This document shows positions 27,364-54,523 of a DNA stretch of 64,000 nucleotides, piece by piece. Origin of the DNA: Bacteroidota bacterium (GTDB taxonomy: Bacteria; Bacteroidota; Bacteroidia; Sphingobacteriales; Sphingobacteriaceae); contig JABDFM010000004.1 in assembly GCA_013286565.1 (NCBI GenBank), positions 1 through 64,000 on the forward strand, given 5' to 3'. The notes beneath the pieces are model-generated. The model was not told where the DNA came from and did not search any database. It was given only the letters and a program-made list of their open reading frames with translations. The position numbers were made by a program, and so were the translations under genes. How positions within the stretch are numbered: the first letter of the stretch is position 1; each line of letters opens with the position of its first letter.

Positions 27364-27443
27364 GGGGACTAGTTATGAGTGATGAGTTATAAGTAATGAG
27401 TTAAGCCTAATACTCAAAACTCATTACTTATAACTCACTACTA
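27364..27443. repeat. Word-repeat array between mreB and mreC, GAGTTATGA vocabulary
   Basis: Copies of AGTTATGAGTGATGAGTTAT and TAAGTAATGAGTTA followed by their inverses (AACTCATTACTTATAACTCA) form a nearly complete hairpin. It spans almost the entire 83-bp spacer between the mreB stop and mreC start. The same words recur at 48634-48722 and inside the riboswitch at 53398-53452. Confidence 0.75.
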
Positions 27444-49855: not shown

Positions 49856-52234
49856 TTACGCCGAGCAGGTCACGCATCCCTCATCCATCGAGCATGATGG
49901 ACCAGCTGGTATTTCGTCGGCCACTTGCTCTACATGATCAGGTATTACCGGCTCCATATTTTTGCCGCCCTGGTTCTCTACGGTAAATTTCACTGCCTGC
50001 GATGCCGCTTGTGTGCGTAGGTAATACATACCTGTTTTCAAACCCTTTTTCCAGGCATAAAAATGCATGGAAGTCAGTTTAGACGCATTTGGCGAATTGA
50101 TAAATAGGTTAAGCGATTGCGACTGACAAATATACGCACCCCTATCAGCAGCCATATCGATAATGTTACGCATTTTGATCTCCCATACGGTTTTGTACAG
50201 GTCTTTTAGCTCCTGCGGAATCTCTGCAATATCCTGTATCGAACCGTTCGCGGTGATGATCTTATCTTTCATCGCGTTGTCCCACAAACCGCGGTTTACC
50301 AAATCGCGCAGCAAGAATTTATTGACGATGATAAACTCTCCGCTTAATACGCGGCGGGTGTAGATATTAGAGGTGTAGGGTTCAAAACATTCGTTATTGC
50401 CCAATATCTGCGAGGTGGAGGCGGTTGGCATAGGAGCAACCAATAAGGAGTTACGCACGCCGTGATTCATCACATCCAAACGCAGGTTTTCCCAGTCCCA
50501 TCTGCCGGTATCCGGTTTTACATCCCACAGATCAAACTGGAATTTACCTTTTGATAATGGCGAACCTTTAAATGTTTCGTAAGCGCCATCTTGGATAGCC
50601 AGGTCTTTCGAAGCCGTCATGGCTGCAAAGTAGATGGTCTCGAATATCTCTTTGTTCAGTTTCTTGGCTTCTTCGCTTTCAAACGGCAGGCGCAGTAAAA
50701 TGAAAGCATCTGCCAGCCCTTGCACACCCAAACCAATTGGACGGTGGCGCAGGTTAGAATATCTGGCTTCTTCAACCGGGTAATAGTTGTTATCAATGAT
50801 CTTATTCAGGTTCAAAGTAACCTGGTAAGTTACCTCGTATAATTTCTGGTGATCGAAAACGCCATTGTTTACATATCTCGGCAATGCCAGCGAGGCCAGG
50901 TTGCAAACAGCCACTTCTTCGGCCGATGTATATTCCATGATCTCGGTACACAAGTTGGAACTTTTGATCGTCCCCAAATTTTGCTGGTTCGATTTGCCGT
51001 TGGCGGCGTCCTTATATAATAAGTAAGGCGTGCCGGTTTCTACCTGTGCATCCAGTATGGCAAACCAAAGTTCCTGTGCCTTTACGGTTTTGCGGGCGCG
51101 CCCTTCTTTTTCATATTTTTCATAAAAGGCTTCAAACTCGGCACCAAAACAATCGGCTAATCCCGGTGCTTCGTGCGGGCAGAACAGGCTCCATTCTTCA
51201 TTAGCCTCTACCCTTTTCATAAACAGGTCGGATACCCAAAGGGCGTAGAACAAATCGCGGGCACGCATTTCTTCTTTACCATGGTTTTTGCGGAGATCTA
51301 AAAAGTCAAATACATCCGCATGCCATGGTTCTAAATAAATAGCGAATGCACCCTTACGCTTGCCACCGCCCTGGTCTACATAACGGGCTGTATCGTTAAA
51401 TACTTTTAGCATGGGTACAATACCGTTACTGGTGCCATTAGTGCCGCTGATGTAAGAACCTGTGGCCCTTACATTGTGGATGCTCAAACCAATACCACCT
51501 GCGCTTTGAGATATTTTGGCGGTTTGCTTTAATGTATCATAAATGCCGTCAATACTATCATCCTTCATCGTCAATAAAAAGCAGGATGACATTTGTGGTT
51601 TCGGCGTACCGGCATTAAATAAGGTCGGCGTAGCATGGGTGAACCAGCGCTCGCTCATCAGGTTATAAGTTTTGATGACGCTATCTACATCCTCTTTGTG
51701 AATACCTACAGCAACCCGCATAAATAAATGCTGCGGGCGCTCGGCAATTTTACCATCCAGCTTTAACAGGTATGATTTCTCCAACGTTTTGAAGCCGAAA
51801 TAATCAAAACCAAAATCACGGTCGTATATAATGGTGCTGTCCAGTAGTTCGGCATTAGCTTCGATCACTTCCCATACATCATCGGCAATCAGCGAAGCAT
51901 TTTTGCTCGTTTTGGCATCGATATAACCATGCAAAAGTCGCATGGTTTCTGAAAATGATTTAATGGTATTCTTATGCAGATTGGATACGGCTATGCGCGA
52001 TGCCAGTAAAGCATAATCCGGGTGCTTGGTGGTTAATGAGGCCGCGGTCTCTGCAGCCAGGTTATCCAATTCGGAGGTGGTTACCCCGTCGTACAAACCT
52101 TCAATTACTTTTTTGGCTACATCGATCGGGTCAACCAATGCAGGGTTTAAACTATAGCACAGTTTCTCGATGCGTGCGGTTATTTTATCAAATTTTACGG
52201 TTTCTTTTTTACCGTCTCTTTTTATTACATACAT
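49856..52234 (-). CDS. nrdA: Ribonucleoside-diphosphate reductase, alpha subunit (class I)
   Basis: 792 residues. N-terminal ATP-cone ([20 protein letters not shown]), then the ten-strand barrel: [20 protein letters not shown] with one active-site Cys, [11 protein letters not shown] and [11 protein letters not shown] with the radical-site Cys, and the loop [20 protein letters not shown]. The C-terminal tail ends CVTCSA, the CxxC that is re-reduced by thioredoxin or glutaredoxin. It makes dNDPs with NrdB. Follows nrdB with a 37-bp repeat-filled spacer. Confidence 0.96.
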
Positions 52235-52235
52235 G

Positions 52236-52270
52236 GGTGTTGGAGATTAGAGGTTAGAGATCAGTGATTA
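52236..52270. repeat. Word-repeat array between nrdB and nrdA, TTAGAGATCAG vocabulary
   Basis: GGAGATTAGAGGTTAGAGAT and CAGTGATTAG fill the whole spacer between the nrdB stop and nrdA start. Same words occur upstream of purH (30162-30200) and, inverted, upstream of the purN end (31243-31260). Confidence 0.7.
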
Positions 52271-52271
52271 G

Positions 52272-53243
52272 TTAAAAATCATCATCAAGCGAAAAAGCTT
52301 TGCTTTCCTGCGTATTCAGCACGCCGTTTTTCTGATAATCGCCTACGCGTTTTTCAAAGAAATTAGTTTTGCCCTGCAGGGATATCATCTCCATAAAATC
52401 AAATGGATTGGCGGCATTATAAACTTTATCATAGCCTAATTCTAATAACCACCTGTCGGCTACAAATTCAATATACTGGCTCATTAGTTTGGCGTTCATA
52501 CCAATGAGATTTACTGGTAACGCATCAGTCACAAATTCCTTTTCTATCTCAACGGCATCAGTAATGATGGCGGTCGCTTCTTCCTTAGATAGCTTTTCGC
52601 CCAGCATACTGTATAACAAACAGGCAAACTCACAATGCATACCTTCATCACGAGAGATCAGCTCATTGCTGAAAGTAAGGCCTGGCATCAAACCACGTTT
52701 TTTGAGCCAGAAAATAGAGCAGAAACTTCCGGAAAAGAAGATACCTTCTACCGCTGCAAATGCAACTAAACGCTGAGCAAAGGTTCCGTTATTGATCCAT
52801 TTGAGTGCCCATTGCGCTTTTTTTTGCACTGCAGGTACGGTATCGATGGCATGAAACAAACGATCCTTTTCGGCAGGGTCTTTTACATAAGTATCGATCA
52901 GCAAGGCATAGGTTTCTGAATGAATATTCTCCATCATAATCTGGAAACCATAAAAACACCGTGCTTCGGGCACCTGCACTTCGCTCATAAAGTTTACGGC
53001 AAGGTTCTCATTCACGATCCCATCGCTGGCTGCAAAAAAAGCCAGGATATGGGATATAAAATGCCGCTCGCCGTCGTTCAGGTTTTCCCAGTGCTTCAGG
53101 TCGTCGGAGAGGTCGATCTCCTCGGCGGTCCAAAAACTGGCCTCGTGCTTTTTGTACATTTCCCAGATGCGGGGATAGTTGATGGGGAGGATCACAAACC
53201 GGTCCTTGTTCTCCCTTAATAATACTTCATTTTCCTGTTTCAT
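52272..53243 (-). CDS. nrdB: Ribonucleoside-diphosphate reductase, beta subunit
   Basis: 323 residues. Start [20 protein letters not shown]; metal-ligand segments [29 protein letters not shown] and [14 protein letters not shown] are visible, and the tail [14 protein letters not shown] is the alpha-subunit docking end. The ATG at 53243 is preferred; the longer frame continues into the riboswitch region. Di-iron (or related) oxygen-dependent radical generator of class I reductase. Preceded by a cobalamin riboswitch, which is the likely control of the nrdBA transcript. Confidence 0.96.
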
Positions 53244-53356
53244 GCCTCGTCGTTTTTTTATTTGTTTGGGGCTGACAAAAGACGATGAACCGGGCACTTT
53301 ACGGAAGTACAGGGGACAGGGCTTTCATCAAAACCTTATTCGTGAAAGTTTTGACA

Positions 53357-53530
53357 AGCTATCTGGCAGGTGTCTGGCTTATAGTAGTTGTGGGTAGCGA
53401 GTGATCAGTTATGAGTAAAAAACTCACTACTTAAAACTCAAAACTCAGTACTAAAACACAGTTGCACGTCAGCCCATGATTTGCACATGGTTCCCTTTTA
53501 ATACCGGCTTTTAACCCGGCAACCTTTGAT
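53357..53530 (-). ncRNA. Cobalamin riboswitch upstream of nrdBA
   Basis: Read on the minus strand the order of conserved blocks is GGTTGCC (53524-53518), TAAAAGGGAAC (53500-53490), a stem CCATGTGCAAATCATGG, GCTGACGTGCAACTGT (53473-53458) and AAGCCAGACACCTGCC (53380-53365). These correspond to the AdoCbl riboswitch core: P3 AAGGGAA, the GCAACTGT of P5/P6 and the B12-box CCTGCC. Between CAACTGT and the last block is a word-repeat array (53398-53452) in a peripheral helix position. The nrdB ATG is about 115 bp downstream; a TCAAAAC/GTTTTGA hairpin at 53328-53354 may be part of the expression platform. Rfam confirmation not run. Confidence 0.88.
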
Positions 53531-53705
53531 AGCGTTTGTTAAAGAACTTAGAGTTTCAAAGATAACGGGTGGGGCTATTACGATGTTAGTGATAGTTTTT
53601 AACATCGGGGTTAGTTATGCACAAGGCGGCAATCAGACATATTTTGTTTTTAAAAACTGTTCTTTCAATAAAATGTTTGTAAATTCAATTAAAAAACCCA
53701 TCACC

Positions 53706-54428: not shown

Positions 54429-54523
54429 TTGTTGGAATGTTGTAAGGTTGGAAAGTTGTAAGGTTAAAACACCATTAAAGGCAACTTTCCAACCTTAAAA
54501 CCTTCCAACTTTTCAACCTTCAA
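54427..54523. repeat. GGTTGGAAAGTTG inverted word repeat
   Basis: AAGGTTGGAAAGTTG (54443-54457) and CAACTTTCCAACCTT (54481-54495) are perfect 15-bp inverses, with further AAGGTT and CCTTCCAAC words outside. It lies between the convergent aquaporin and msrB genes and may terminate both. Related words occur at 40605. Confidence 0.75.

Follow-up and report, generated by a model that had tools for sequence, protein, structure and literature searches.

In a 64,000-nucleotide stretch of a Bacteroidota genome, analysed at its full length and called here the window, the P6 arm of a B12-sensing riboswitch ahead of nrdBA is built of degenerate seven-base repeats. It is probable that in most relatives a heptanucleotide hairpin of the dispersed type has replaced the short stem-loop that occupies this P6 extension in outgroups. 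The observations that carry this reading are the position of the array, its heptad periodicity, orthologous arms made of other words, one short arm nested among array bearers, and a likeness to unlinked arrays of the same genome. The features of the locus are as follows.

53349–53543, minus strand: cobalamin riboswitch aptamer (RF00174), ahead of nrdB; cmscan 51.7 bits (gathering threshold 31.5), E 5.5e-10, model positions 1–189
53458–53543, minus strand: 5′ half of the aptamer core, ending with the conserved CAACTGT block; from the Rfam alignment, kept in nrdB orthologues
53380–53457, minus strand: P6 arm, a degenerate heptanucleotide array; from lag-7 and lag-14 z values, hairpin fold and genomic relatives
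53365–53379, minus strand: B12 box, AGCCAGACACCTGCC; from the Rfam alignment and the sequence
52272–53243, minus strand: nrdB, ribonucleotide reductase small subunit, downstream of the riboswitch; from the open reading frame and related loci
49856–52234, minus strand: nrdA, large subunit, the gene after nrdB; open reading frame of 792 aa

The aptamer is the sole Rfam RNA in the window that scores above its gathering threshold, and with both core and B12 box present it belongs to RF00174. The nrdB frame is listed from 53297 with an upstream GTG, and the ATG at 53243 was adopted as the start; the nrdA frame matches TIGR02504 with a score below the family cut-off. The closest named relative of the NrdB protein is that of Mucilaginibacter limnophilus (93% identity), followed by Mucilaginibacter sp. 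JRF (92%), and in both species the riboswitch likewise stands ahead of nrdB. An NrdB frame follows the element in all 23 orthologues described below. The genome, of which the assembly is incomplete (71.68% complete, 131 contigs), also encodes a B12-dependent reductase, NrdJ, elsewhere (C102, 484 bits with neighbours), which would be in keeping with B12 repressing the enzyme that does not need it. The nrdB element is a putative cobalamin-binding regulator of the downstream gene. By eye, a TCGTC upstream of nrdB (53240–53300, minus strand) can pair with GACGA at the ribosome site, and in orthologues both sides differ yet seem to remain complementary. Such co-varying complements suggest a translational expression platform. 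A search of a phage collection gave no match.

On the minus strand the CAACTGT block ends at 53458 and the B12 box begins at 53379; the 78 nt between them are, in their entirety, a degenerate array of seven-base repeats. The first-pass annotation had pointed to repeat words at 53398–53452; they are there, and the full array is longer. Read along the RNA strand, the 5′ side holds four heptads of the NNTRAGT type (ACTGAGT, TTTGAGT, TTTAAGT, AGTGAGT) and runs into a T-rich loop, after which five heptads, mostly ACTCANN, form the 3′ side (ACTCATA, ACTGATC, ACTCGCT, ACCCACA, ACTACTA). The word TAACTGA is present once. Lag-7 identity in the arm is 0.56 vs 0.32 expected (z 4.2), with a z of 4.3 at lag 14, and Tandem Repeats Finder reports 53419–53457 with a period of 21 and a score of 62. 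A stricter local scan, which requires 0.64 identity at one lag within 40 nt, does not pick up the arm; taken alone, therefore, its signal is moderate, and the orthologues carry the case. Together with a few flanking bases (53385–53462) it is predicted to fold into a single imperfect hairpin of -17.7 kcal/mol, with a z of -2.0 against dinucleotide shuffles; the z for the arm hairpin against mononucleotide shuffles is -3.0.

Of 149 genomes in the genus, 46 contain a match to a core pattern in which up to two mismatches were allowed. The element stands ahead of an NrdB frame in at least 23 of the 149, the window's genome included, and this is a lower bound because the pattern is strict. The remaining matches mostly belong to another class of B12 riboswitch, ending in GTCG; matches in G118, G123 and G138, as well as second matches in some nrdB genomes, were left out of the reading. 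The first-pass annotation had proposed comparing presence and absence of the insert across relatives; in this comparison the core is conserved while arms range from 2 to 160 nt. In 18 of the 23 orthologues the arm is a heptad array of 72–160 nt, so the array is not peculiar to the species of the window. The other five show no 7-base periodicity and have, after CAACTGT, arms of 2 (G132), 18 (G147), 21 (G128), 46 (G037) and 47 nt (G047). The arms of G037 and G047 (L112 and L113) share GCAACTGCTT..GC..CTGCAA, repeat the core word GCAACTG inside the arm and do not resemble heptad arrays. Outgroup arms measure 16–17 nt at three loci, two of Flavihumibacter and one of Paradesertivirga. When 40 of 80 related nrdB loci were scanned with Rfam, eight gave a cobalamin match, namely the two Mucilaginibacter and six others: one on the opposite strand (L049), one with a large extension of canonical type (L051), three with short arms (L057, L055 and L093), and L107, which was left out of the arm reading.

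The long arms differ in their words and share their step. By eye, at least three vocabularies can be told apart (GTGA, GAGT and AAGTT). The 5′ halves are C-poor and the 3′ halves G-poor, least clearly so in G120. When the halves of all 18 long arms are pooled, lag-7 identity is 0.526 vs 0.298 after shuffling (z about 20), with 0.506 at lag 14 and 0.490 at lag 21; no other lag between 1 and 20 is raised. Taken singly, 16 of the 18 reach a lag-7 z of at least 3 (G060 and G104 have only 1.1), and the best lag among 3–15 is 7 or 14 in every one. For contrast, the z is 1.9 in 46 distinct arms taken from the genus's other B12 riboswitches; for the riboswitch cores it is -0.4 at lag 7 and reaches 4.6 at lag 14. 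As a possible second host, RNase P RNA was examined with a strand-neutral lag test on 15 of 16 genus sequences (L177 left out); identity is 0.274 vs 0.254 (z 3.5, a small effect), and no comparable array was found in these 15. Among the RNAs compared (RNase P RNA and other B12 arms), strong 7-base periodicity is confined to the nrdB arms.

It might be supposed that the arm is the ordinary variable P6 extension (P7–P11) of a class I cobalamin riboswitch and that its repeat-like words are coincidental, since cobalamin riboswitches do vary there and Rfam scores the whole element above threshold. Class I riboswitches, according to the accessible part of PMC11260477, have a P6 extension that is large and contains a second four-way junction (P7, P8, P10, P11). 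The other B12 riboswitches of the genus that were read, including the second one of this genome (C11, L001), have in the arm position a motif of the CCACTG..GGGAAGG type, which agrees with class I and a second four-way junction. This motif is absent from the nrdB arms, and the window's arm is, by prediction, one heptad hairpin with no such junction. Rfam leaves the arm unaligned (58 model positions vs 65 bases), so the array bases do not correspond to the conserved P6–P8 helices, a correspondence that would have spoken against the first-pass annotation; its placing of the array in a variable peripheral arm outside the core agrees both with this and with the differences between orthologous arms. 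With the periodicity restricted to nrdB arms among the RNAs compared, and with arm-related sequences in intergenic regions, the ordinary-extension reading is already contradicted and very improbable. With class II riboswitches, as the accessible part of the same source describes them, the element has in common the core, the B12 box and the lack of a P7/P8/P10/P11 junction. Class II is marked by a truncated P6 extension and by GGAA at J3/4; here GGGAACC is present, and the arm is short in the outgroups, G132, G147 and G128 but long in 18 orthologues, in which a repeat hairpin of 72–160 nt fills the place of the truncated P6.

Folding models are consistent with an arm that pairs mainly with itself. 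The 18 long arms fold with z values of -2.2 to -6.7 against mononucleotide shuffles and of -2.2 to -5.6 when the halves are shuffled within themselves; a single hairpin is predicted in 16, and two loops in G060 and G120. Heptads lie on both sides of the peripheral stem and are predicted to pair with each other, as in the stem of the Nostoc type discussed below. An unconstrained fold of 296 nt did not reproduce the Rfam core, and models of the aptamer only were used instead. In such models for seven of the 18 long-arm species, 0.2–6.2 nt of the arm pair with the core, as against 13.7–21.9 nt when the arm is shuffled. P5 does not drop below 0.91. Core pairing of P6 is 0.18–0.93 with the arm, 0.06–0.28 when the arm is cut to two bases and 0.00–0.02 with shuffled arms; in G008 it is 0.28 whether or not the arm is present. 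The arm slightly lowers P3 in the window's aptamer, from 0.99 to 0.83. The proposal in the first-pass annotation that the repeats form their own hairpin on top of the RNA without breaking the core thus holds for the predicted self-folding and the small effect on core helices; the hairpin does not sit atop the arm, it is the arm. Other arrays of the window, swapped into this position on both strands, were fairly well insulated too: three two-armed ones paired with the core over 1.0–5.1 nt and two one-armed ones over 5.6–10.5 nt, compared with 9.2–34.2 nt for five coding pieces. P6 was well formed in only one of the ten array-swap trials. The models thus suggest that self-pairing comes with the class of repeat, whereas the fit to P6 depends more on the site.

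The history of the arm was followed in a tree of nrdB. There, G132, with its arm of 2 nt, and G008 (97 nt) are sisters (support 100/99), nested among array bearers. A topology that unites all short arms in one clade is rejected (p-AU 6e-5), and one that groups G132 with only the outgroup-like rows is rejected less strongly (p-AU 0.028). G132 keeps the core, the B12 box and nrdB, and this, with its nested position, makes it look like a natural deletion of the arm. An independent switch of vocabulary in G143 was also considered. G143 falls with the GTGA group in the tree (86/92), yet a topology that unites the AAGTT arms is not rejected (p-AU 0.251). Slippage in whole heptads finds no support in gap lengths, as only 7 of 42 gaps of at least three bases between related arms are multiples of seven, without enrichment.

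Alternatively, selection could act specifically on the arm as a regulatory part, such as a stem bound by a protein or a ruler of length, and the heptads would then serve this function. In comparisons of 11 overlapping genome pairs, substitutions are rarer at paired (73 of 612) than at unpaired (80 of 353) arm positions, which speaks for such a role, and in the accessible part of PMC4679880 MacGregor suggests a post-transcriptional regulator that binds TAACTGA in Beggiatoaceae, a word found once in the window's arm. Against it, both the words and the length (72–160 nt) vary between species while the core is constant, G132 has an arm of only 2 nt, and similar hairpins occur in many unrelated spacers. 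A selected regulatory part is accordingly considered unlikely. Selection on the pairing itself leaves a weak signal: an arm's own halves fit slightly better than 3′ halves swapped within the vocabulary class (374 of 20,000 shuffles were as low). Compensatory evolution within the arm was likewise considered, and the sign of it is weak; among 62 changed pairs from the 11 overlapping genome pairs, 4 are compensatory, 22 one-sided and 36 broken.

Sequences related to the arm lie elsewhere in the window and the genome, and the following two arrays belong to this part of the argument.

27365–27442, no strand assigned: related heptad hairpin in the putative mreB–mreC spacer; BLAST 76%, E 0.0014; lag-7 match 0.70; tandem repeats
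52233–52282, no strand assigned: lag-7 array with different words, lying across the nrdB–nrdA spacer; lag-7 match 0.70

The vocabulary that the first-pass annotation saw shared with the mreB–mreC spacer is recovered by BLAST (27377–27428 of the window against the arm). In its own genome the window's arm has 34 further matches at E ≤10, of which 10 (in 9 places) are at E ≤0.01; the mreB–mreC spacer is among them, and another, at C8:25650, is full length with 75% identity. Fourteen matches (11 places) were inspected, and 13 have no spanning open frame of 80 codons, L202 being the one that does. Alignment scores with the arm are 34–62 for these 14 and at most 34 for the orthologous arms of 22 species and three outgroups, a comparison biased towards the own genome, where the top matches come from 3.2 Mb while each other genome contributes a single arm. 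Searching 22 other whole genomes with the same arm gave 4 matches in G120, one each in G012, G029, G105 and G122, and none in 17. According to a hand-set gene list, the window's arrays outside the riboswitch comprise 12 rows in spacers and 4 in coding sequence. The spacer rows have a period of 7 in five cases, 8 in four, 9 in two and 10 in one; pooled spacers give a lag-7 identity of 0.290 vs 0.273 (z 4.0), not above lags 4, 9 and 14. Periods in spacers are thus mixed, and seven is the rule in riboswitch arms and not the sole period in spacers. One of the window's arrays, at 54429–54512, is a two-armed period-8 array (GTTGGAAAGTTGTAAG / AACCTTCCAACCTTAA) between convergent genes that looks like a terminator-like hairpin of similar style. 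The closest own-genome relative of the arm (L197, G000:C8:25650–25730) lies between two 63-nt direct repeats, 198 bases apart and 90% alike, so that a larger repeat unit either contains the heptad hairpin or is interrupted by it.

A dispersed palindrome might be moved by a REP-associated transposase (Y1, RAYT-like). The genome has eight Y1_Tnp matches, seven of them above the cut-off, and the full-length relative at C8:25650 would also speak for this. The fetched flanks of all eight Y1_Tnp loci contain no lag-7 array, and at the one locus that was read the flanks hold different palindromes, GTTCC..GGAAC. Mobility of this kind is therefore regarded as highly improbable. The locus that was read (L211, G000:C29, about 1300–1960) has a Y1 (RAYT-like) transposase gene with several of these palindromes on its flanks; they appear to form a REP family separate from the heptad arrays.

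The words of the arms were also compared with those of whole genomes. The AAGTT-type arm of G026 has matches in 10 of the 23 genomes. Outside the riboswitch and nrdA these number 9 in G143, 8 each in G026 and G099, 7 in G116, 5 in G029, 4 in G104 and 3 in G105; these counts exclude the riboswitch arms, own and orthologous, as well as three nrdA matches (in G104, G105 and G143), and include some places once per strand. Among the 11 other long-arm genomes G122 has 3, G000 has 1 and nine have none, and among the five short-arm genomes G128 has 7 and the others none. Twenty of the matches were fetched: three lie in nrdA, one (L232) lies in another open frame, and the remaining 16 are not spanned by any open frame of 80 codons. 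Among these 16, nearly identical arrays occur at the same site in sister species (L229, L230 and L233; L224 and L231), so shared descent explains part of the pattern. The GTGA-type arm of G012 has matches in 19 of the 23 genomes, with none in G099, G104, G116 and G143; it also matches AAGTT-arm genomes (G026 11, G105 5, G029 2), counts from which riboswitch arms were not removed. From these sequence comparisons, arm vocabulary tends to follow genome vocabulary, and since six of the seven AAGTT genomes form one clade, this amounts to only one or two independent contrasts. It is conceivable, if doubtful, that arm and intergenic hairpins evolve in concert, each genome having a heptad dialect that is rewritten by copying or by a shared mutational machine working in 7-base steps. 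This is supported by the 10 own-genome matches of the window's arm vs 4 in G120 and at most 1 in the other 21 genomes, and by the matches of the G026 arm in 7/7 AAGTT-arm genomes vs 2/11 other long-arm genomes. Were it true, the arm would be repeatedly overwritten while selection holds the core, and it would record the current dialect of its genome.

Some arrays met in these searches are worth noting on their own account. In G060 (C4:104133–104225) GTGA-type matches follow one another at exact 21-base steps, possibly as a long tandem array. L235 (G143:C10:3702–3777) is a nearly perfect heptad palindrome of about 30 pairs (-60.3 kcal/mol with flanks), far better matched than the riboswitch arms and perhaps a recently formed hairpin. 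L232 (G105:C12:21835–21865) is a perfect-looking heptad array inside an open frame of 395 residues, possibly a coding array; by eye, the start of the frame resembles a folate synthase family protein.

Taken together, the arm is probably a structural filler that is indifferent to sequence. It would pair mainly with itself, leave the core with its four-way junction free and cap P6; in the folding models it would be tolerated because a C-poor 5′ half and a G-poor 3′ half favour self-pairing. Its letters would turn over by processes common to intergenic arrays, for which slippage by 7-base units and copying between arms or between arrays are candidates. On binding B12 the RNA would mask the ribosome site of nrdB, in the manner of other B12 switches that act on translation, and the arm would have little effect on affinity. 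The first-pass annotation took the array to mean that repeats enter functional RNA, and the 18 genomes in which a heptad array makes up the riboswitch arm bear this out. Its further statement, that selection tolerates the repeats only at permissive positions, may hold, the contrasts covered being 15 RNase P RNAs and 46 arms of other B12 riboswitches. It appears that a genomic repeat that changes fast can be accommodated in a working RNA, provided that the repeat folds into its own hairpin. The 23 orthologues amount to a natural experiment: the core is the same in all, the arms span 2–160 nt, and one seems to have been lost cleanly. This makes testable both the freedom of an RNA arm to vary and the origin of the unexplained 7-base step.

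Heptads are known from the structured RNA of another phylum as well: in cyanobacteria, short tandemly repeated repetitive (STRR) sequences occur, among other places, in RNase P RNA. The likeness lies in heptads that occupy a variable helix of a structured RNA; both the phylum and the RNA are different here.

Between genes, heptamer repeats (TAACTGA and others) occur in Beggiatoaceae, cyanobacteria and five Bacteroidetes, and a polymerase-related reason for the 7-base unit was suggested by Mrazek et al. (2007), as cited there (PMC4679880, accessible part). The arrays described here share with them the heptad unit, the intergenic placement and the presence in Bacteroidetes. As far as the accessible part of that paper goes, those are direct repeats of one word, mostly near start codons in the main species, whereas here degenerate two-armed hairpins are found, one of them inside a riboswitch.

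The closest parallel is the P6b stem-loop of the group I intron in tRNA-Leu(UAA) of Nostoc. The accessible part of PMC4476775 describes heptads of class I (TDNGATT) and class II (NNTGAGT), and reports that class II has given way to class I on several independent occasions, always in that direction, with the core constant. In both systems degenerate heptads pair together into a peripheral stem of a structured RNA and the length varies; the 5′ heptads of the window's arm fit NNTRAGT. The Nostoc stem belongs to a self-splicing cyanobacterial intron and has two classes, whereas here the array sits in a riboswitch and not in a tRNA-Leu intron. At least three vocabularies occur here by our own grouping, related arrays are scattered through the same genome, and one arm has apparently been lost completely. 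No description of heptad arrays in a riboswitch was found among the open-access papers listed, and the nrdB arm is the first riboswitch case of a heptad-built peripheral stem known to us. It thus adds to the Nostoc tRNA-Leu intron a second, phylogenetically remote case in which seven-base repeats build a stem of a working RNA.
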